DNA from: a bacterium
GTDB lineage: Bacteria; SZUA-79; Acidulodesulfobacterales; Acidulodesulfobacteraceae
Length of the DNA: 64,000 bases
Assembly: GCA_021794255.1 (NCBI GenBank)
Contig: JAJYRF010000001.1
Coordinates: forward strand, 1-64,000
Direction of reading: 5' to 3'
Below are positions 62 through 58,659 of the stretch, piece after piece. The notes beneath the pieces were generated by a model that worked only from the letters and a program-made list of their open reading frames with translations, was not told where the DNA came from and ran no database searches. The position numbers were made by a program, and so were the translations under genes. Positions within the stretch are counted from its first letter, which is position 1, and each line of letters opens with the position of its first letter.

Positions 62-98
62 TTTAATTAATTAAATTAAATTAATTTAATTTCAAGCT

Positions 99-188
99 TT
101 CCTTCGCTGGTATTGTCCATATTCAGGTTCAAAGGGTTTTGAATAGATCCAATCTCAGCCTATTATAATATAATTAGGCACCCCTAGC
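99..188 (-). promoter_or_regulatory. TPP (THI-box) riboswitch
   Basis: Reading the minus strand, the segment starts with a GGGGTGCC-type 5' stem. It continues with the CTGAGA box (as GGCTGAGATTGG), then ACCCTTTGAACCTG, and ends with the AATACCAGCG-AAGGAA 3' part. These are the invariant blocks of the thiamine pyrophosphate aptamer in the right order and spacing. It should repress a thiamine synthesis or uptake gene when TPP is high. That gene lies to the left of the window. No GC-rich terminator follows the aptamer within the window, so control may be at translation initiation or the expression platform may lie beyond the edge. Confidence 0.93.
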
Positions 189-255
189 ATTTTATTATTT
201 TTTTGTTTATATTTATATCTTAATAAGTATCTTAATTAATTAACTTATAAAATAT

Positions 256-602: not shown

Positions 603-1556
603 TTATAATATTTCTTGGAAAACAAGGGTTGATAAATATCGAGAGCCTGCGTCAGGCAAAACCGTGCTATAATTTCCTTTGTATTTTTGACTAAGTTTAT
701 GAATTCCGTACAAATTAGCTCCAGAAGAAAAGCCGCATAAAAGACCTTCTTGTTTTATAAGCTGTTTAAGCATTAAATAGCTTCCTTCCGTGTCTACTTT
801 TATGTAATCATCTATAATATCGTTATAATCAAATCCTTGAAAATTAAATGAGTAATTATATTTCCATCCTTCTATGCCATGCATCGGATTATCTGGCACG
901 ATGGCGATGATTTTAATATTTTTATTATATTCTTTAAGTCTTTTTCCTGTTCCTAAAATAGTGCCGCCTGTTCCAATGCCAGTTACAAAATAATCAATAT
1001 TGCCGCCTGTTTGTGTAATAATTTCTAATGCCGTAGTTTCATAATGAGATACGGCATTATTTGGATTATTATATTGGTCAGGCATATAATAAATATTATT
1101 TCCGCCTCTTTTATATTCTTCTATAGATTTTTTAATAGCTCCATCATGGCTTTCTTCCGCAGGAGTCAGAATTAATTCTGCGCCGTAAAGCTTGATTATC
1201 TGTTTACGTTCCTCGCTCATATTTAAAGGAGCATAAATCTTTACTTTTATACCTAACAATGCACCTATCATAGCGTAAGAAATACCAGTGTTTCCTGAAG
1301 AAGAATCAATTATAGTCATATTTTGTTTAAGGATATTTCTGTTTATCGCGTCTCTTATCATATAAAATGCTGGTCTATCCTTAATAGAACCCCCCGGATT
1401 CTGAGATTCTGTTTTAGCATAAACTTTAATGCCGTCAGAAACGTTAAATAAATTATCTAATAAACAAATATCCGTTCCGCCGATTGAATTAAACAAATTT
1501 AAACTTAAGAAATTTAATTTATATTTTAGTTCACTTACTATATCTTTTTTACTCAT
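603..1556 (-). CDS. cysM: CysM-type cysteine synthase (PLP beta-family)
   Basis: This is a 317-residue fold-type II PLP enzyme of the cysteine synthase family. The Schiff-base lysine is K59 in NPGGSIKDRPA, the substrate loop SSGNT is at 86-90, and the phosphate loop GTGGT is at 195-199. The SIKDRPA signature and the C-terminal PDAGSRYLST segment resemble the CysO-dependent CysM group, which uses O-phosphoserine and a protein thiocarboxylate rather than free sulfide. That assignment fits the neighbours: a CysO-like carrier, a MoeB-type activator and a TusA-like protein lie upstream on the same strand. It is the last gene of the minus-strand unit, 149 bases after tusA, with no clear ribosome-binding site. 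It could instead be an ordinary O-acetylserine sulfhydrylase; the family call is firm, the sulfur donor is inferred. Confidence 0.85.
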   Translation of the reverse strand: MSKKDIVSELKYKLNFLSLNLFNSIGGTDICLLDNLFNVSDGIKVYAKTESQNPGGSIKDRPAFYMIRDAINRNILKQNMTIIDSSSGNTGISYAMIGALLGIKVKIYAPLNMSEERKQIIKLYGAELILTPAEESHDGAIKKSIEEYKRGGNNIYYMPDQYNNPNNAVSHYETTALEIITQTGGNIDYFVTGIGTGGTILGTGKRLKEYNKNIKIIAIVPDNPMHGIEGWKYNYSFNFQGFDYNDIIDDYIKVDTEGSYLMLKQLIKQEGLLCGFSSGANLYGIHKLSQKYKGNYSTVLPDAGSRYLSTLVFQEIL

Positions 1557-1705
1557 TACGTTTTTTATTATTTCTTTATAATGTTTATAATGATCGTTAA
1601 CTTATTAATTGATAAGTATTAATTAAGTTAATTAATATGCTAATATTAATTATGATAAATTAATTATTATAATTAAGTTATTAAGCTAATATTATAATTT
1701 AACAA

Positions 1706-1951
1706 TTATTTTCTAAGTCCGTTTTTCTCAACTATTATTTCATAATCGGTATCATTTATTTGATTAATTGAAAGCACTTTATGACCCTGTTCTTCCATAG
1801 AACGCGGAACATTTCTTATAGCAGGTTCATAATCTACTATTATTCTTAATATTTCGCCCTGTTTCATTTTTTCTAAAGCAAGTTTAGACCTGACAAAAGT
1901 AAAAGGGCATATTTCGCCTTTAATATCTAATTCGCTCTTATATTCAGCCAT
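1706..1951 (-). CDS. tusA: TusA-like sulfur carrier protein
   Basis: A small protein of about 81 residues of the TusA/SirA fold. The active cysteine lies in the segment ICPFTFVRSKLALEKM, followed by a beta-rich half ending IIVEKNGLRK. The usual CPxP motif reads CPFT, so the second proline is missing, as in the CPxTF variant of the family. The ATG at 1951 is preferred over an upstream TTG at 1969 because GGAG sits about ten bases before it and the family usually begins just before the first strand. It lies between moeB and cysM on the same strand and could pass persulfide sulfur to the carrier protein at 3015-3530. Its donor is unknown. Confidence 0.85.
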   Translation of the reverse strand: MAEYKSELDIKGEICPFTFVRSKLALEKMKQGEILRIIVDYEPAIRNVPRSMEEQGHKVLSINQINDTDYEIIVEKNGLRK

Positions 1952-1998
1952 TTCGCATTTACTCCGCAAATATTAAATATATTAATTAAATAAGCAAA

Positions 1999-2032
1999 TT
2001 AATCTATATATTAATATTAATATATAGATTAA
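1999..2032. repeat. Perfect 34-bp AT palindrome plus 27-bp direct repeat
   Basis: The segment reads the same on both strands over 34 bases (arms 1999-2014 and 2017-2032, centre TA). Its right part is also the start of a 27-bp exact direct repeat, at 2021-2047 and again at 2133-2159. Both lie in the 235-base gap between tusA and moeB. This spacer is AT-rich with no further gene. It may form a cruciform or an RNA hairpin within the operon; no function can be assigned. Confidence 0.8.
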
Positions 2033-2186
2033 GTGAATAAATTAATTGAATTAATTATAAAACTAATTGAATAAGTTTATTAATTTAATAAGCTATTGAA
2101 ACAGATTAAATAAATTAAATAAACAAGTTAATTATATAGATTAAGTGAATAAATTAATTAATTAAAAATTAAATAAATATTTTTTA

Positions 2187-2990
2187 TCAATTTCTAAATT
2201 CACAAGATTCTTCGTATTCTATTAAATTGATTATAGTATGGTTTTCGCCGCAAAGCGGACAAGTTTTATCCTGTCTAAGTTTCATTTCGGTAAATTTCAT
2301 ATCTAAAGCATCATATATTAATAATCTGCCGTTTAATGTCGTACCGATGCCGAGAATTATTTTTATAGTTTCATTAGCCTGTATAGCTCCTATTATTCCC
2401 GGCAATACGCCTAAAACGCCGGCTTCCTGACAGCTTGGAACCAATCCTTCAGGCGGTGGCGAAGGAAAAAGACATCTATAGCAGGGACCTTTATCAGGCA
2501 GAAAAACAGTTGCTTGACCGTCAAACCTAAAGATAGAACCATAAACAAGAGGTTTTCCGTAAAAATGGCATGCATCGTTAATTAAATATCTTGTCGGAAA
2601 ATTATCGGTAGCATCTATTATCACGTCATAATCTTCAATAAGTTCTTTTATATTAGCAGAAGATATTTTCTCCTTATATGTTACGACTTTAACATCAGGG
2701 TTAATTCTTTCGATTGAATCTTTTGCAGAGTCTACCTTATATCTTCCGACGTCTTTATTGCCGTGCCATATTTGCCTTTGCAGGTTTGAAAGATCCACCG
2801 TATCAAAATCGGCAATTCCGAGAGTTCCAACACCCGCCGCTCCAAGATATAATCCGCATGGCGCTCCTAAACCGCCTGCTCCTATTAAAAGAACTTTAGA
2901 AGACAATAATTTCTCCTGACCTTCGCCGCCAACTTCCGGCAGTATTATATGTCTAGCGTATCTTTTTATCTGTTCTTCCGTAAAATCCAA
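2187..2990 (-). CDS. moeB: MoeB/ThiF-type sulfur-carrier adenylyltransferase
   Basis: An E1-like enzyme that adenylates the C-terminal glycine of a ubiquitin-like sulfur carrier. Numbering from the outer ATG at 3002, the nucleotide loop GAGGLG is at 41-46. Zinc cysteines are C174/C177 (CYRC) and C248/C251 (CPLC), and the candidate catalytic cysteine is C191 in SCQEAG. There is no C-terminal rhodanese domain as in MoeZ, so sulfur must come from another protein, plausibly the neighbouring TusA. The start is ambiguous: an ATG at 3002 has no ribosome-binding site, while GGAGG at 2996-3000 is ideally placed for the TTG at 2990, which is adopted here. It follows the CysO-like gene by about 24 bases and probably activates that protein. 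Confidence 0.92.
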   Translation of the reverse strand: MDFTEEQIKRYARHIILPEVGGEGQEKLLSSKVLLIGAGGLGAPCGLYLGAAGVGTLGIADFDTVDLSNLQRQIWHGNKDVGRYKVDSAKDSIERINPDVKVVTYKEKISSANIKELIEDYDVIIDATDNFPTRYLINDACHFYGKPLVYGSIFRFDGQATVFLPDKGPCYRCLFPSPPPEGLVPSCQEAGVLGVLPGIIGAIQANETIKIILGIGTTLNGRLLIYDALDMKFTEMKLRQDKTCPLCGENHTIINLIEYEESCEFRN

Positions 2991-3014
2991 AATAACCTCC
3001 ATAATTAAAAATTT

Positions 3015-3530
3015 TCATTCGACAATATCTAATACAATAGGTTCAACGCTTACGCCTTTAGATTCTAAAAATGCTACCGCTTTTTCAATATCTGAATATT
3101 CCCCTTCAATTTCAAGAGCAATGATGCCTATATCATTAGAGATACTGGCGCTTCTTATGTTAGTAATTACATTATAATTTTTCCCTATTAAATATATTAG
3201 CGGATCTTTAATTACCCCTTGAGGATAATTTAAATAAAATTTTTTCTTTTCGGGAGCGCCTCCTGCAATAGCAGGAATGATTGAAATTGTGTCTCCGTCT
3301 TTGACCGATGAATTATTGCTGTCTATAAATCTGATATCTTCATCATTTAAATAAACATTGACGAATCTTCTGACCTGATCATTCTGTTCGCATATTCTTT
3401 CTTTTATGCCTGGATAATTTTTTTCAAGGTCATTAATGATTTCTAAAATATTAGATCCTTGAGTGTCAACTTCTGATTTTCCGCCTGTTAATGTCCTTAA
3501 AGGCGTCGGTATTCTAACAGTTATAGCCAT
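3015..3530 (-). CDS. CysO-like sulfur carrier fused to NIL domain
   Basis: A 171-residue two-domain protein. Residues 1-91 are a beta-grasp carrier very like mycobacterial CysO: IPTPLRTLTGG near the start, then RRFVNVYLNDEDIRF, and an IPAIAGG ending. In CysO the Gly-Gly is the C-terminus that becomes a thiocarboxylate. Here it is internal (G90-G91) and followed by a linker and an ACT-like NIL domain (about 95-171), the type found at the end of the methionine transporter ATPase MetN and in homocysteine-synthesis proteins. A strong GGAGG ribosome-binding site precedes the ATG. The gene lies between the threonine-synthase-like gene and moeB in a SAM-I riboswitch unit. Thiocarboxylation would need cleavage after GG; no JAMM protease gene is visible in the window. 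Confidence 0.88.
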   Translation of the reverse strand: MAITVRIPTPLRTLTGGKSEVDTQGSNILEIINDLEKNYPGIKERICEQNDQVRRFVNVYLNDEDIRFIDSNNSSVKDGDTISIIPAIAGGAPEKKKFYLNYPQGVIKDPLIYLIGKNYNVITNIRSASISNDIGIIALEIEGEYSDIEKAVAFLESKGVSVEPIVLDIVE

Positions 3531-3582
3531 TTTTCCTCCAGATTATTATCAACTAATTATATAATTAATTGTGTTTATGTGT

Positions 3583-4824
3583 TTATTTTTTTTCTCTTAT
3601 TTTTTTAAGTATTTCTTCAAATTCTTCCAGATTAGGATTAATAATCGGAGCTTCATTTAATCTGTTGTTAAGTGCTTCTAACGTTTTTAATCCATTCCCG
3701 GTAATTGCAAGTACGGTAGTTTCATTTTTATTAATGTAGCCTTTTTCAATGAGTTTTTTTGCAACGGCAACGGTGACGCCGCCGGCAGTCTCGGTAAATA
3801 TTCCTTCCGTAGATGCTAAAAGTTTCATACCTTCCACTATTTCATCGTCCGTGGCATCTTCTCCGAATCCGCCGCTTTTATGCATCAGATCCGCGGCATA
3901 ATATCCGTCTGCAGGATTGCCTATTGCGAGCGATTTTGCAATAGTATCGGGAATTTTAACCGGTTTAATAAATTCTCTTTTTTCTTTTACGGTTGATGTA
4001 ATAGGATTGCATCCTGTAGCCTGCGCTCCGAATATTTTAGTATTGTGTTTTTCAATTAATCCACAATATTCAAATTCTTCAATAGATTTTCCGACTTTTG
4101 TAATTAAAGAACCGCCGGCCATAGGGACGACAATATTATCAGGAGCTTTAAAGCCAAGCTGTTCAAGGATTTCAAATGTAAGAGATTTTGAACCTTCCGC
4201 ATAATAAGGTCTTAAATTTATATTAACAAATGCCCAGTTATGTTTGCCTGCTATCTCCGTGCAAAGTCTGTTTACTTTGTCATAACTCCCCTCTATCTTA
4301 ACTAAATTAGTCCCGTAAATAAGGGTGCCTAAGACCTTGCCTACTTCAAGATTTGACGGAATAAACACAAAACTTTCAAAACCGGAAGAAGCTGCCAAAG
4401 CAGCCGTTGCATTTGCAAGATTGCCTGTTGAGGCGCATGCGATAACTTTAAAACCAAATTCTTTTGCTTTAGCTATAGCAACAGAAACTACTCTGTCTTT
4501 AAAAGAAAGAGTGGGAAAGTTAACCGCATCGTTTTTAATATATATATGTTTAACACCTAAAGTTTTGGCAAGATTATCAGCCTTAACTAAAGGAGTGAAT
4601 CCGACATCTTTGCCTATTTCTATATCGCCTTTAATAGGGAGCAATTCTCTGTATCTCCACATATTTGGCTGTCTAGATTTAATTTTTTCTATGCTTATAT
4701 TTTTTTTGATTTTATCATAATCATAATCTACTTCTAACGGTCCAAAGCAATAATCGCAGACATAGAGAGCGCTGTCCGGATATTCTTTTCCGCATTCTCT
4801 GCATTTTAGTCCTTTCACAAACAT
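3583..4824 (-). CDS. thrC: Threonine synthase-like PLP enzyme
   Basis: This 413-residue protein belongs to the threonine synthase branch of fold-type II PLP enzymes. It has an N-terminal zinc-ribbon-like segment (C8, C11, C23, C26), the Schiff-base lysine K108 in TLSFKDR, a STGN substrate loop, and a C-terminal GNGLKTLEAL segment. AAGGAG precedes the ATG by five bases. It normally converts O-phosphohomoserine to threonine. It is the first gene after a SAM-I riboswitch and precedes the CysO-like, MoeB, TusA and CysM genes, so a role in methionine synthesis is worth considering, for example making homocysteine from O-phosphohomoserine and a protein thiocarboxylate. That alternative is inference; sequence alone supports the threonine synthase family. 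Confidence 0.85.
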   Translation of the reverse strand: MFVKGLKCRECGKEYPDSALYVCDYCFGPLEVDYDYDKIKKNISIEKIKSRQPNMWRYRELLPIKGDIEIGKDVGFTPLVKADNLAKTLGVKHIYIKNDAVNFPTLSFKDRVVSVAIAKAKEFGFKVIACASTGNLANATAALAASSGFESFVFIPSNLEVGKVLGTLIYGTNLVKIEGSYDKVNRLCTEIAGKHNWAFVNINLRPYYAEGSKSLTFEILEQLGFKAPDNIVVPMAGGSLITKVGKSIEEFEYCGLIEKHNTKIFGAQATGCNPITSTVKEKREFIKPVKIPDTIAKSLAIGNPADGYYAADLMHKSGGFGEDATDDEIVEGMKLLASTEGIFTETAGGVTVAVAKKLIEKGYINKNETTVLAITGNGLKTLEALNNRLNEAPIINPNLEEFEEILKKIREKK

Positions 4825-4946
4825 TTTGTCTCCTTAATTTTATTAAAGTGTTATATAAACTATATAGCTATCTATGACCATTAAGTTATTAAGACAATGA
4901 ATAATGTATTGCTCATCATCATTAGTATATTTATTTAAGTTAAGCC

Positions 4947-5117
4947 ATTAAATTATTAAATTATTAAGTTATTAAATTATTAAGTTATTAAATGATTAAG
5001 TTATTAAGTTATTAAGTTATTAAATGATTAAGTTATTAAGTTATTAAGTTATTAAATGATTAAATGATTAAATGATTAAATGATTAAATTATTAAGTTAT
5101 TAAATGATTAAGTTATT
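4947..5117. repeat. 8-bp AT tandem array in riboswitch leader
   Basis: About 21 copies of an 8-bp unit lie head to tail, in three variants: GTTATTAA, ATTATTAA and ATGATTAA. The array lies between the SAM-I riboswitch terminator (5181-5227) and the thrC-like start codon (4824), so it would form part of the 5' untranslated RNA of that operon. The remainder of 4825-5180 is AT-rich and otherwise empty. The pattern of variants suggests slippage or unequal exchange. Confidence 0.9.
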
Positions 5118-5180
5118 TATGTATATTAAAAGTATTATAAATTAAATTAAAATGTATGTTGTGTTAAATAAATTATTTGC

Positions 5181-5227
5181 AAAAAAAAAGCCTTTTCTTC
5201 CGGATGAAATATGAAGAAAAGGCTTTT
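5181..5227 (-). terminator. Intrinsic terminator of the SAM-I riboswitch
   Basis: On the minus strand a strong stem (AAAGCCTTTTCTTC paired with GAAGAAAAGGCTTT) is followed directly by a run of T. It begins about ten bases after the aptamer's closing P1 strand, the usual place for the expression platform of an S-box transcriptional OFF switch. Confidence 0.93.
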
Positions 5228-5237
5228 AACGCTTATC

Positions 5238-5419
5238 TTCTTATCTTCCAGGCATAATTATTTTGTTTAATCCTATGATGTTATTATGGCATAAATGCCA
5301 CATTCCTGCGGGAGTTAGCACCGAATAAATTAAATTTTTTTTTAAAGATAAATTAAAATTTAAAGTTTCGGTTGCTGCGGTTTCAAATGGGCCCGTCCCT
5401 TCACCGCTCTTGATAAGAA
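5238..5419 (-). promoter_or_regulatory. SAM-I (S-box) riboswitch
   Basis: The minus strand shows the S-box consensus in order: TTCTTATCAAGAG as the 5' P1 side, GGTGAAGGGACGGGCCC, TGAAACCGCAGCAACC, an AT-rich variable arm, GGTGCTAACTCC, and GAAGATAAGAAG as the 3' P1 side. It is followed by an intrinsic terminator. SAM binding should terminate transcription of the genes from 4824 down to 603. An apparent reading frame over this RNA has no homology and is not a gene. The 335 bases between the aptamer and rlpA (5755) are AT-rich and must hold divergent promoters, but I cannot fix them. Confidence 0.96.
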
Positions 5420-8847: not shown

Positions 8848-9986
8848 TGGAAGATTTAATTGAACAGAATAATTATCAAAATGATAACGAACCGCCGTTT
8901 ATAAAACTTGAAGATGTTATAATACAAAAATGTAAAGAGCTTAAAGAAGAAGCTGAAAATCTTAATAAAAATATTCAGGAAATCAGTAAAGACGGTTTTA
9001 ATGAATCTGCTAAAGACCCTATTAAGAGATATAATTTAATTAAAAAAGTCATAGATACTTTTGAAGAATATAATAAAATATTATCAGATATAGAAGAACT
9101 TCAAAGGCTAAAAAAAAAAGAATTAGATAGCGAGCTTCTATTTATGGAGCTTGAAGAGATTAATGCTCTTCAGGCTAAAGCTAATAAAGCCGCCGAAACA
9201 ATAAAAGAATATTTTTACCCTAGAGATGCAGATGCCGATAAAGATATACTTTTAGAAATAAGAGCGGCAACAGGCGGAGAAGAAGCTGCTCTTTTTGCTC
9301 TTGATTTGTATAAAATGTACAATAAATATGCAATAATAAAAAATTTTAATTTTGAACTTATATCTTCAAGTTATTCAGCATCCGGCGGGCTTAAAGAAGC
9401 CGTAATATCGGTTAAGGGCAAAGATGTTTTCAGGCTTTTAAAATATGAAAGCGGCGTTCACAGAGTTCAAAGAATTCCTGCAACGGAAACTCAAGGAAGA
9501 GTTCATACTTCTGCTGCCACAATCGCGGTTATGCTGGAACCCGAAGAAATTGACCTTAAAATAGCTGCCGAAGATTTAAGGATAGATGTTTACAGGTCAA
9601 CCGGGCATGGAGGGCAAAGCGTCAACACAACAGATTCTGCCGTCAGAATAACCCATTTACCTACTAATCTTGTTGTTACCTGTCAGGATGAAAAATCGCA
9701 GCATAAAAATAAGGCTAAAGCTTTAAGAATATTAAGATCAAGACTATTAAACATATTAGAAGCCGATAAGAAATCTATTGAAGCAAAAAATAGAAAAAAC
9801 ATGGTTGGAAGCGGAGATAGAAGCGAAAAAATCAGAACATATAATTTTTCACAGGGCAGAATAACAGACCACAGGGCAGGAATAACACTTCATAAGCTGA
9901 ATTCTATTATGGAAGGAAATCTTGATGAGTTGCTAATTCCGCTGTCAAAATATTTTGAATCTCAAAGATCTCTTGAAATCAAATAA
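8847..9986 (+). CDS. prfA: Peptide chain release factor 1
   Basis: RF1 terminates translation at UAA and UAG. The codon-recognition motif PAT is seen in VQRIPATETQGRVHTSAAT, and the peptidyl-hydrolysis GGQ in STGHGGQSVNTTDSAVR. The ATG at 8847 overlaps the thyX stop. An upstream in-frame ATG at 8823 would overlap thyX by 25 bases and is less likely. The GGQ glutamine is normally methylated by PrmC, whose gene follows directly, so the two form the usual prfA-prmC pair. Confidence 0.95.
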   Translation: MEDLIEQNNYQNDNEPPFIKLEDVIIQKCKELKEEAENLNKNIQEISKDGFNESAKDPIKRYNLIKKVIDTFEEYNKILSDIEELQRLKKKELDSELLFMELEEINALQAKANKAAETIKEYFYPRDADADKDILLEIRAATGGEEAALFALDLYKMYNKYAIIKNFNFELISSSYSASGGLKEAVISVKGKDVFRLLKYESGVHRVQRIPATETQGRVHTSAATIAVMLEPEEIDLKIAAEDLRIDVYRSTGHGGQSVNTTDSAVRITHLPTNLVVTCQDEKSQHKNKAKALRILRSRLLNILEADKKSIEAKNRKNMVGSGDRSEKIRTYNFSQGRITDHRAGITLHKLNSIMEGNLDELLIPLSKYFESQRSLEIK

Positions 9987-11184
9987 TTTTACTGTTTTTG
10001 AAACAATTAAGGCAGGAGCTGAATATTTAAAAAAAAATAACGGGGATATTTTTGATTGTTTTAAAGAATCTCTGCTGTTAATGAGCTATGTTTTAAATAT
10101 TCCTATCGAAAAAATTATTATAAATTATGAAAGCAAAATAAGTAAAAATAAATTAAAGGTTTTTAACGGTTATATTGCAAGAAGAGCTAAAAAAGAACCG
10201 TTTGCTTACATAATTAAAAATAAAGAATTTTATTCAATTGATTTTTTTGTCAACAAATATGTTCTTATTCCAAGACCGGATACCGAAATTTTAGTAGATG
10301 AAAGTTTAAAGGAAATTAACAGATTAAACACAATAATAAACAACGATAACTATAATGACATAACTAGCAATGACATAACTAGCTGCACAGATAATAATAT
10401 AAACAATAATAACAAAAAGACAGATGACAACAACTATAAGAATAATGACGGTAATTATAATTATAGCAGCATAAACAATATAGATAAAAATATTAAAGTT
10501 ATAGATCTCGGTACAGGTTCAGGAGCTGTAGCGGTATCTATTGCTAAAAATTATCAATATTCAAATATTGAAATTTATGCCGCCGATAATAGTTTCAGAG
10601 CTTTAAATGTCGCAAGAAATAATGTAATATTAAATAATGTAGAAAATAAAATTAAATTAACCTATTTTAATATTTTAAATCAAAATATATGCTGGTATAA
10701 TGAATCTAAAAAAAAATATAATGCGCATTTTTATGAATTTGATATCATTATATCTAATCCGCCTTATATAGTATCATCTGATATTGCATTGCTAAGCGAT
10801 GAAGTTAAAAATTACGAACCCTATAAAGCTCTTGACGGAGGTATTGACGGACTTAAATTTTACAGGAAGATATTTGAATTGTTTTCATCGGCAATAGAAA
10901 ATTCAGCGTATAATCATTCAATTAATAAAGAACTTTGTTTAATTTTAGAAATAGATTACAGATATAAAGAAGAAATAAAAAAAATTTATGAATTGACATT
11001 TTATGATAAAGATAATAAATATAATAATAATTGTAAAGAATATGAACATAAAATAAATACAAAAAACAATAAAAATAATAAAGACAATAAAAAAAAACCA
11101 ATCAATATAACAATCAATTTTATAAAAGATATGTCAGGAAAAGAAAGGGTGGCAAAAATTAATTATGGAAAAAATAATAATTGA
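9955..11184 (+). CDS. prmC: Release-factor glutamine methyltransferase with Asn-rich insertions
   Basis: PrmC methylates the GGQ glutamine of RF1 and RF2 using SAM. The N-terminal helical domain, the SAM loop VIDLGTGSGAVAVSIA (from about 182) and the catalytic NPPY motif are all present. At 409 residues it is well above the usual 280 or so. An insertion of about 58 residues rich in Asn, Asp and Lys (about 121-178) separates the two domains, and a second one (about 350-390) lies near the C-terminus. The apparent start is TTG at 9955, inside the end of prfA, with no ribosome-binding site. The gene overlaps murA by 20 bases. Confidence 0.93.
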   Translation: MNLKDLLKSNNFTVFETIKAGAEYLKKNNGDIFDCFKESLLLMSYVLNIPIEKIIINYESKISKNKLKVFNGYIARRAKKEPFAYIIKNKEFYSIDFFVNKYVLIPRPDTEILVDESLKEINRLNTIINNDNYNDITSNDITSCTDNNINNNNKKTDDNNYKNNDGNYNYSSINNIDKNIKVIDLGTGSGAVAVSIAKNYQYSNIEIYAADNSFRALNVARNNVILNNVENKIKLTYFNILNQNICWYNESKKKYNAHFYEFDIIISNPPYIVSSDIALLSDEVKNYEPYKALDGGIDGLKFYRKIFELFSSAIENSAYNHSINKELCLILEIDYRYKEEIKKIYELTFYDKDNKYNNNCKEYEHKINTKNNKNNKDNKKKPINITINFIKDMSGKERVAKINYGKNNN

Positions 11185-15951: not shown

Positions 15952-16842
15952 ATGCTTAAAGACGAAAAATTTAAAGATGAAGGACCAAGAAAAGATAAGT
16001 TTCAAAGAAAAACTAAAGAAACAGATATTGAGCTTTATTTGAATATTGACGGGACCGGCGAATATTATATAAACACGGGAGTTCCTTTTTTTAATCATAT
16101 GCTTGAACAATTGGCAAAACACTCTAATTTTGATATTAATTTAAATGCGAAAGGCGACATTGAAATAGATTTACATCATTTAATAGAAGATACGGGAATT
16201 GTGTTCGGACAAGCCATTAATAAACTTGCCGGAGAAAAAAAGGGTATAAACAGATACGGTTTTGCTTCGGTTCCTATGGACGAAGCATTATTGCAGACTA
16301 CTGTTGATTTTAGCGGAAGGGCATATTTTGTTTATCATTATTATAACAATGATAATAATGTTTTTAGCGGTTCTAAAATAAAAAATAAAACCTCATGTTT
16401 ATCTGTTGATGATAATTATAATAATGGTTTTGACGATTTGTCGGGAGGGTTTCCTTTATCTAAAAGAAAACGCACTGATAAACTTAATAATTTTAATGCA
16501 AAATTTAAAAATTTAATACATAAAATAAATTCAATAAATTATGACGGTTCTGTTCAATCATCTAAATTAGGCAATAATGAAAAAGAATTAAAAACAGGAT
16601 TATTTAATTCAGAATTATTGTATAATGAATTAGTGGCAGAAATTTTTTTTTACGATTATGTAAATATATTTTTTGAAGCTTTTTGCAAAAATGCTTTGAT
16701 TAATCTGCATATTAATGTCATGTACGGCAATAATTATCATCATATAACCGAAGCAATTTTTAAATCTTGTGCCGTAAGCATTTCTAATGCTTTAAGAAAG
16801 ACGGGGAGAAATAATATTCCGTCAACAAAAGGAATAATTTAA
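15952..16842 (+). CDS. hisB: Imidazoleglycerol-phosphate dehydratase with large insertion
   Basis: HisB dehydrates imidazoleglycerol phosphate. Metal-binding repeats are present as DLHHLIEDTG (first half) and NNYHHITEA (second half), and the start RKTKETDIELYLNIDGTG is typical. Family members have about 195 residues; this one has 296. About 85 residues (roughly 131-217), rich in Asn, Lys, Asp and Ser, are inserted between the two halves after GRAYFVYHY. Both halves remain in one frame and look intact, so the gene is probably functional. There is no phosphatase domain. Confidence 0.93.
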   Translation: MLKDEKFKDEGPRKDKFQRKTKETDIELYLNIDGTGEYYINTGVPFFNHMLEQLAKHSNFDINLNAKGDIEIDLHHLIEDTGIVFGQAINKLAGEKKGINRYGFASVPMDEALLQTTVDFSGRAYFVYHYYNNDNNVFSGSKIKNKTSCLSVDDNYNNGFDDLSGGFPLSKRKRTDKLNNFNAKFKNLIHKINSINYDGSVQSSKLGNNEKELKTGLFNSELLYNELVAEIFFYDYVNIFFEAFCKNALINLHINVMYGNNYHHITEAIFKSCAVSISNALRKTGRNNIPSTKGII

Positions 16843-20761: not shown

Positions 20762-21544
20762 ATGATGAAAGAAATAAATAATTTTGCGGATTCTATTGAT
20801 TTTTCAAAATTGAATGGGCTTGTGCCTGCGGTAGCGCAGGATTATTATTCTAAAGAAGTGCTTATGCTTGCTTTTATGAATAAAGAATCGCTTAAAAAAA
20901 CATTAGAAACGGGTTATGTGCATTATTATTCCCGTTCCCGCAGGCAATTATGGAAAAAAGGCGAAACATCGGGACACATTCAGGAAATAAAAGAAATATT
21001 TTATGACTGCGATAGCGACAGTATTCTTCTAAAAATTATACAAATAGGCGATGCCTGCCATACAGGACATAAGACTTGTTTTTATTCAAAATTAGATAAT
21101 AGTTTAATAAAGTTTAATAACAACAAAGACAAAAAAGACAAAAATATTAATAATGAAGATATAAATCAAGATATTGAAGATACAACAGATACAAAAAATA
21201 TAAAAGATAGCGAATTTAATAAAGAAAAATTTTATTCATTAAAATTAATATTTGATTTGATTAAAAGCAGAAAAATATCAGATCCTGAAAAATCCTATGC
21301 GGCAAAGCTTATAAATGCAGGTTTGGAAAAAATTGGCAAAAAATTGCAGGAAGAATCTCTTGAATTGATTATAGCAGGTTTTAATAAAGAAAAGCAGGGT
21401 ATTATTTATGAAGCTGCCGATTTGCTATTTTTTTTTATGGTGCTTTTAGTTTATCTTGATATTGATATAAATGATGTAATAATAGAATTAAAAAAAAGAG
21501 AAGGTATATCCGGTATTGACGAAAAAAACTCAAGGAAGATATAA
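20762..21544 (+). CDS. hisIE: Bifunctional PR-AMP cyclohydrolase / PR-ATP pyrophosphatase
   Basis: The two enzymes that follow HisG are fused. HisI occupies about 1-115, with the zinc and metal motifs DCDSDS and [12 protein letters not shown]. HisE occupies about 160-258, with [14 protein letters not shown] and [14 protein letters not shown]. The linker between them (about 118-155) is Asn/Asp/Lys-rich and low in complexity, longer than usual. This completes the histidine block. Confidence 0.95.
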
Positions 21545-57525: not shown

Positions 57526-58659
57526 ATGAGCCAAAATAACGAAACTGATTTAGATTATAATTATAAGGGATTTCAGGGATTGATTAATATTATAGAACAG
57601 CTGAGGTCGGAAAACGGTTGCCCCTGGGATAAAAAACAAACTGAAGAAACTCTTAAACCTTATATTTTAGAAGAAGCTTATGAAGTTATAGAAGCTTTAG
57701 ATTCCCAAGATACTTTGGAAATTTCGGAAGAACTGGGTGACCTCTTACTTCAGGTTGTGTTTATATCTCAAATATATGCGGAGAAGAAAATATTTTCAAT
57801 TGAAGATGTTATAGAAAAAATAAATAATAAATTGCTACGGAGGCATCCGCATGTTTTTGATAAAACATTCAGTTTGAAAGAAGGGGAATGTTTAGATGAT
57901 ATTATTTTAGAAAATTGGGAAAAAATCAAAAAACAGGAAAAAAATGAAAAAGAAAATAAAAAACAAAATTATAATGAAAATAATATTAATAATAAAAGCA
58001 ATAACATTGATAATAACAAAGACAGCAATAATAATTTAAACATAAATAATATTATTAATTCTTCTATTTATGTCATTAAAAATATGCCTGCGCTTCATAG
58101 AGCTTATATGATACAAGAAAAAGCCTCAAGACAGGGGTTTGATTTCTCAAGCATATATGAAGCATTAGATAAAATTAACGAAGAAACATGCGAACTTAGT
58201 GAAGAAATTGAAATTTTTAAAAATGATTTTATTAATATTAACAACATCAAAGATAATAAATCAAAATTATTAAATAAATTAAATAACAATATTGATGGCG
58301 ATAACAATATTGAAAGGAAAATTAATTTAAATAATGATAATAATAATATTGATAAAAATGATATAGACAAGATAATTAAAAAAGAAATAAAAAAAGATAA
58401 CTATGTTTTTGACGCTAATAAAAATAATATAAACAAGATAACGGAAGAATACGGCGATTTATTATTTTCTATTGTAAACATAGGCCGATTATTAGATTTA
58501 CATCCCTGCGATGCTCTTAATAAAGCGTCCGATAAATTTATCAAAAGATTCCATTATATTGAAAATCAACTTTCGTCAGTCCAAAATTCTAATATTAAAT
58601 CTGTCGATGCAGACGCATTAAATAATTTATGGGAAGAGGCCAAAAAATATATTAAATAA
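57526..58659 (+). CDS. mazG: MazG nucleoside triphosphate pyrophosphohydrolase with Asn-rich insertions
   Basis: MazG hydrolyses NTPs and dNTPs to monophosphates, clearing damaged nucleotides. It has two tandem MazG folds: the first at about 15-115 (GCPWDKKQTEETLKPYILEEAYE, EELGDLLLQVVF), the second split around about 185-370 (ASRQGFDFSS, EEYGDLLFSIVNIGR). At 377 residues it is about 110 longer than E. coli MazG. Two Asn/Lys/Asp-rich insertions (about 136-178 and 228-300) account for this. The second splits the C-terminal domain between the two metal-binding helices. Confidence 0.93.
   Translation: MSQNNETDLDYNYKGFQGLINIIEQLRSENGCPWDKKQTEETLKPYILEEAYEVIEALDSQDTLEISEELGDLLLQVVFISQIYAEKKIFSIEDVIEKINNKLLRRHPHVFDKTFSLKEGECLDDIILENWEKIKKQEKNEKENKKQNYNENNINNKSNNIDNNKDSNNNLNINNIINSSIYVIKNMPALHRAYMIQEKASRQGFDFSSIYEALDKINEETCELSEEIEIFKNDFININNIKDNKSKLLNKLNNNIDGDNNIERKINLNNDNNNIDKNDIDKIIKKEIKKDNYVFDANKNNINKITEEYGDLLFSIVNIGRLLDLHPCDALNKASDKFIKRFHYIENQLSSVQNSNIKSVDADALNNLWEEAKKYIK

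Follow-up and report, generated by a model that had tools for sequence, protein, structure and literature searches.

A SAM-I-controlled operon, probably for homocysteine synthesis, with a ThrC-like enzyme and a NIL-fused sulfur carrier

A 64,000-nucleotide stretch of bacterial DNA (hereafter the window; GenBank assembly GCA_021794255.1, contig JAJYRF010000001.1, order Acidulodesulfobacterales) carries on its minus strand, at 603..5419, an S-adenosylmethionine (SAM)-I riboswitch with a terminator ahead of genes for a ThrC-like enzyme, a sulfur carrier fused to a NIL domain (ThiS-NIL), MoeB, a TusA-like protein and a CysM-like protein. We consider this very probably to be a SAM-repressed operon for homocysteine, and probably also for cysteine, of the MetM/MetO kind. 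The layout had been proposed in a sequence-only reading of this DNA and was confirmed by Rfam, fold and family searches, and the same reading's preference for homocysteine over threonine as the product, made from O-phosphohomoserine and a carrier thiocarboxylate with a canonical thrC elsewhere, gains support from comparison of related sequences. Its claim to an undescribed pathway does not stand: the excerpts of PMC12172450 cite Hasebe et al. (2024) for MetM of Streptomyces albulus, which turns O-phosphohomoserine into homocysteine, and for MetO, a member of the sulfur carrier family, and they imply a SAM riboswitch upstream of metM.

Operon architecture and SAM-I control

The first gene of the operon (3583..4824) encodes a ThrC-like pyridoxal phosphate (PLP) enzyme (TIGR00260, 271 bits against a cut-off of 167.1), which its clade and signature residues assign to the MetM type, a proposed homocysteine synthase; the protein carries a cysteine motif at its N terminus. 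There follow the ThiS/CysO/MetO-like carrier fused to its NIL domain (3015..3530; PF02597 and PF09383), a MoeB/ThiF-like E1 adenylyltransferase (2187..3002; NF004281, 317.4 bits against a cut-off of 266; PF00899), the TusA-like sulfurtransferase (1706..1969; PF01206, 77.4 bits) and a CysM/CysK-like PLP enzyme (603..1556), proposed as a carrier-linked cysteine synthase, which scores 284.1 bits with TIGR01136, below the cut-off of 344.15, and reaches none of the curated cut-offs for the families that the search showed. That search found no MetY-type PF01053 enzyme among the five operon proteins, and PF01837 (DUF39) was absent from them and from genomes G001 and G002, the former of which, at 1.0 Mb, may be incomplete. 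Recurrence of the gene set behind SAM-I in relatives, which the sequence-only reading had suggested looking for, is seen in two close relatives (loci L001 and L002): both have the identical five genes in identical order with a SAM-I element each, so the arrangement is not a matter of chance.

Rfam model RF00162 matches 5281-5419 at 50.0 bits (E 1.8e-8), above its gathering score of 44.4. Our model R1, built from nine SAM-I elements (the window and eight loci), extends the aptamer to 5238..5419 on the minus strand, including an insertion before the 3′ strand of P1, and scores it at 88.8 bits, the window sequence being one of its nine training rows. Folding of the whole leader (z-score –5.25) places a terminator hairpin with a 15-bp stem and a following run of U at ~5170..5222 on the same strand; a simple terminator pattern scan found none, because its loop limit was 8 bases and the hairpin loop has 12. 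A sigma-70-like promoter match (11 of 12 positions) lies at 5536-5508, such matches being no commoner than chance (9 found, 11.5 expected). Riboswitch and first gene are separated by ~300 bases of repetitive, A+T-rich sequence (~4864-5160); in the near relative G305 this stretch is missing, the flanking matched pieces there lying about 15 bases apart.

Across phyla, the cluster was surveyed through its carrier, the best 80 of 567 confirmed matches of a carrier scan defining the 80 loci used here, 78 of which have a carrier reading frame. The window's own carrier is 84% identical to one from Candidatus Acidulodesulfobacterium ferriphilum (P0004). A cluster-type ThrC gene lies within 2 kb of the carrier on the same strand in 69 of the 78 loci, and within 5 kb are found MoeB (40/78), CysM (41/78) and TusA (13/78); the NIL domain is fused to the carrier in 10, encoded by a separate neighbouring gene in 48 and not seen in 20. 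MetM/MetO-like clusters are thus present in many phyla, with locus record titles naming Nitrospirota, Omnitrophota, Verrucomicrobiota, Planctomycetota, Binatota, Aquificota, Armatimonadota, Elusimicrobiota and others. Five loci (L024, L025, L028, L029, L030) continue with a canonical thrC in the array, and a proposed homoserine kinase and aspartokinase lie near L024, L029, L030 and L016 (one protein of each kind was checked for its family); because of these neighbours, we place both the cluster-type and the canonical ThrC on the O-phosphohomoserine branch.

Besides the window, R1 found SAM-I in 26 of the 80 loci, 18 of them new, that is, outside the training set (the match in L055 is weak). 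All 26 elements precede cluster genes; the reading frame as called in L013 and L055 begins upstream of the aptamer, and SAM-I is separated from the ThrC-like gene by a NIL frame in L078. Enough upstream DNA by our rule is available for 68 loci, 25 of which have SAM-I, L022 being additional, and the Rfam model alone detects the element in 9 of 27 loci scanned. In the window's phylum, SAM-I is present at 26 of 28 ThrC-like loci (two of the 26 are the L001 and L002 genomes again, also among the 80), and the remaining two end at contig ends. No SAM-I was found at 30 canonical thrC loci (flanks of ~1.5 kb).

The ThrC-like enzyme and homocysteine routes

In our tree, the 32 cluster-type rows form one clade (support 100/99) apart from the 28 canonical rows. 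Positions equivalent to Thermus thermophilus T88, S155, N157, R160, A189, A240 and W249 are fixed within each set and different between the sets, the PLP lysine and the STGN motif being retained in the cluster type. At T88, S155, N157, R160, N188, A240 and W249, positions that we take to contact the substrate in the T. thermophilus enzyme, the window protein has L, N, R, Y, G, S and G, which is not the canonical signature. Scored against solved threonine synthases, 27 canonical copies reach ~452-597 bits, and six cluster-type rows from the same genomes 96-216 bits, the two full-length rows among these six scoring 206 and 216. A ThrC-like homologue from the actinomycete Nonomuraea falls in the cluster-type clade (FastTree support 1.0) and agrees with the window protein at 22 of 24 compared positions, 7 of them common to canonical ThrC.

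The distribution of known homocysteine enzymes across genomes, many of them fragmentary, points the same way. Among the 49 genomes that carry the carrier loci, a strong PF01053 match (E < 1e-20) occurs in 14, DUF39 in 4 and a MetX-like protein in 7, all seven within the 14; neither PF01053 nor DUF39 is found in 32, and 46 have at least two thrC-like matches, fragments counted. In 61 Aquificota genomes (the phylum of a genome titled Hydrogenothermaceae), cluster-type ThrC is present in 48 and DUF39 in exactly the remaining 13, a mutual exclusion that holds in 61 of 61, and strong PF01053 matches (MetB/MetY/MetZ) number 0 of 61. A second phylum, that of a genome titled Desulfuromonadales, was sampled with 198 genomes and up to 9 candidates scored per genome. 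There, both known enzymes are absent from 14 of 26 genomes with the cluster type versus 7 of 172 without it (odds ratio 27.5, p 7e-10, Fisher's exact test, kinship ignored; G152 and G188, intermediate at 41% identity and 294-300 bits, were counted as without). A normal methionine route with no other threonine synthase, which the sequence-only reading had named as telling against it, is not what the close relative G002 has: a second thrC is present, DUF39 and MetX matches are absent, and PF01053 gives weak cross-matches (best 27.5 bits, E 5.4e-7).

Several observations weigh against the homocysteine reading. SAM-I was found at none of 20 Aquificota loci (flanks of ~1.5 kb) and at none of 17 loci whose titles we read as Nitrospirota, some of which are cut upstream; the Aquificota split may go back to a small number of evolutionary events; and PF01053 or DUF39 stands alongside the carrier locus in 17 of the 49 genomes. 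A known homocysteine enzyme is also present in 12 of the 26 cluster-type genomes of the second phylum, so the cluster-type and known routes can coexist. A motif search for a JAMM gene, whose product the carrier would probably need, found none in the window. Finally, for a Microcystis ThrC that is 51.6% identical to MetM and lies outside our tree, the excerpts of PMC12172450 report threonine synthase and deaminase activity, with sulfide yielding only an unidentified peak, and say that the protein does not seem to fill the MetM role completely; this counts against a pure homocysteine role in the cyanobacterial lineage. The window enzyme might accordingly be read as a bifunctional threonine synthase/deaminase of the same sort, a reading we hold to be very improbable: as described there, the Microcystis sulfur assay used sulfide and no carrier thiocarboxylate, and bifunctionality leaves both SAM-I control and the DUF39 pattern unexplained.

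Slighter still is the chance that the protein is an ordinary threonine synthase under incidental SAM control. Such an enzyme would pass the TIGR00260 cut-off, as this one does, and the predicted structure of the window protein (mean predicted local distance difference test, pLDDT, 84.4) has solved threonine synthases as its nearest folds, although nearness of the model is what is expected of a paralogue. Among 30 genomes of the window's phylum, 28 have the cluster type and 27 a second match (37-41% identity, read as canonical); the cluster-type copy stands alone in three (G001, G314, G319), two of these being at most 1.0 Mb, whereas both types occur together in 25. Two (G326, G330) are without the ThrC-like homocysteine gene. 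In G305, whose ThrC-like protein is 99% identical to the window's (DNA pieces mostly 90-94%), the canonical thrC sits between the homoserine dehydrogenase gene (hom) and a proposed homoserine kinase gene, and the equivalents of T88, S155, N157, R160, A240 and W249 are invariant in 28 of 28 canonical rows and replaced in 32 of 32 cluster-type rows. Residue signature, SAM-I test and co-occurrence test together separate the MetM type from canonical ThrC, and many database ‘threonine synthases’ probably make homocysteine.

Carrier, NIL domain and JAMM protease

The Gly-Gly of the window ThiS-NIL protein lies at residues 90-91, internal rather than terminal, and the motif ending in it is invariant in 31 of 31 aligned ThiS-NIL proteins. 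In the structural model, residues 88-91 have pLDDT below 50 and form a stretch between two folded domains, and the Gly-Gly stretch is probably flexible. Since the Gly-Gly is internal, the NIL-fused carrier should need a protease. Of the unfused carriers, 23 end in Gly-Gly and 45 continue beyond it, some of the latter being over-long reading frames. Among PDB structures, MetN chains match the NIL domain, and a NIL domain binds methionine according to the excerpts of PMC12068725.

A JAMM gene occurs in 26 of the 80 loci, is at most 5 kb away and on the same strand in 25 of these, and directly follows CysM in L001 and L002; with this count, the idea of a JAMM gene beside every carrier was rejected. 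The gene is commoner where residues or NIL follow the Gly-Gly (24/55) than where the Gly-Gly is terminal (2/23; Fisher p 0.003, uncorrected for kinship and contig cuts). At the genome level, 48 of the 49 carrier-locus genomes have a PF14464 match, 47 above cut-off. Of the four whose match is weak or missing, G009, G011 and G035 have a terminal Gly-Gly and G044 has a single residue after it, while a match is present in four further genomes with terminal Gly-Gly.

The carrier domain is nearest to PDB chains 4n6e_B and 3dwg_C, presumably CysO-type chains. This likeness and the CysM-like gene would suit a cluster that makes only cysteine from O-phosphoserine, as mycobacterial CysO/CysM does, yet we give that explanation hardly any weight, with CysM-like genes within 5 kb of 41 of 78 carriers versus ThrC-like genes within 2 kb of 69, and with SAM-I, NIL and the DUF39 pattern all pointing to methionine.

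A role as thiamine sulfur carrier was considered and rejected, as G305 encodes, apart from the carrier, a ThiS-like protein of 66 residues with a terminal Gly-Gly. At that locus (L169), the same operon is followed on the same strand by a thiamine pyrophosphate (TPP) riboswitch and ThiS-like, ThiG-like, CofH-like, CoaBC-like and JAMM genes, the ThiS-like gene adjoining the ThiG-like one behind the riboswitch (ThiS, ThiG and CoaBC being names read from sequence; the ThiG-like protein had no NCBIfam match at 1e-20). The window likewise has a TPP riboswitch just downstream of the operon (82-195, minus strand, 74.9 bits). Downstream of the JAMM gene, L169 carries a Cobalamin riboswitch (3152-3350, 82.1 bits) ahead of a gene read as a nickel/cobalt transporter.

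Elsewhere in the window, proteins read as PrmC-, MazG-, HisIE- and HisB-like (9955-11184, 57526-58659, 20762-21544 and 15952-16842, respectively) have low-complexity stretches that look like insertions, asparagine being richest in those of the MazG-like (19 Asn in 40 residues) and PrmC-like (16 in 40) proteins.

Proposed route and known systems

We infer each catalytic step, the carrier cleavage and the NIL sensing from the computed gene content, riboswitch, clade, signature residues, co-occurrence and conserved order. A protease, probably a JAMM protein encoded elsewhere than in the window, would cleave the NIL-fused carrier behind its Gly-Gly; MoeB would adenylate the Gly-Gly end, and the TusA-like protein would supply sulfur to give the thiocarboxylate. 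The ThrC-like MetM would then join this thiocarboxylate to O-phosphohomoserine from the threonine branch, yielding homocysteine, and CysM would draw on the same carrier for cysteine. When SAM is abundant, the SAM-I terminator is predicted to halt transcription, and methionine is probably sensed by the NIL domain. A more speculative extension, which we advance only tentatively, is that ThiS-NIL is a proprotein in which the methionine-binding NIL domain gates JAMM cleavage, so that methionine sets the supply of active carrier for both amino acids, adding carrier feedback to control by the SAM-sensing RNA, and that the same enzyme family fills the Aquifex homocysteine gap left by Price et al. (2018). 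The excerpts of PMC5764234 list Aquifex among the organisms whose homocysteine pathway is missing, and the ThrC-like family is a candidate for the missing enzyme of such autotrophs. Within our literature survey, which did not extend to the coverage of Hasebe et al. (2024), we recognised no paper describing a NIL-fused carrier in a homocysteine role, and the excerpts of PMC7311316, PMC12452182, PMC7857596 and PMC11378808 hold nothing on such a carrier.

Four known systems bear comparison with the operon. The mycobacterial CysO/CysM/Mec+ system, which makes cysteine from O-phosphoserine via CysO and CysM, shares the CysO-like carrier, the CysM-like enzyme and, in the window's relatives, the JAMM gene; it differs from the window in the latter's SAM-I control and ThrC-like enzyme. 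Wolinella uses a carrier thiocarboxylate for homocysteine through HcyS, HcyD, HcyF and MetY, with the carrier end trimmed by a metalloprotease. The thiocarboxylate and its product are common ground, but the window's PLP enzyme is ThrC-like and not MetY, and strong PF01053 is absent from 35 of the 49 genomes. With the DUF39 (HcyBio) system, with NIL/ferredoxin, the operon shares homocysteine and the NIL domain but contains no DUF39, and where one of the two occurs in the Aquificota sample, the other is missing. Closest is MetM/MetO of Streptomyces albulus, which the excerpts of PMC12172450 present as a ThrC-like homocysteine synthase acting on O-phosphohomoserine, a carrier and an upstream SAM riboswitch. 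The Nonomuraea locus (L172) has that plan, with SAM-I, a ThrC-like gene and an adjoining carrier ending in Gly-Gly, and the window too has a ThrC homologue of the separate clade, an adjacent Gly-Gly carrier gene and a SAM riboswitch upstream. It differs from MetM/MetO in its NIL-fused carrier with internal Gly-Gly and in the MoeB, TusA-like and CysM-like genes inside the operon; what may be new is the NIL-fused carrier, presumably matured by a protease, the grouping of MoeB, TusA and CysM in one operon with it, and the complementary distribution in Aquificota.

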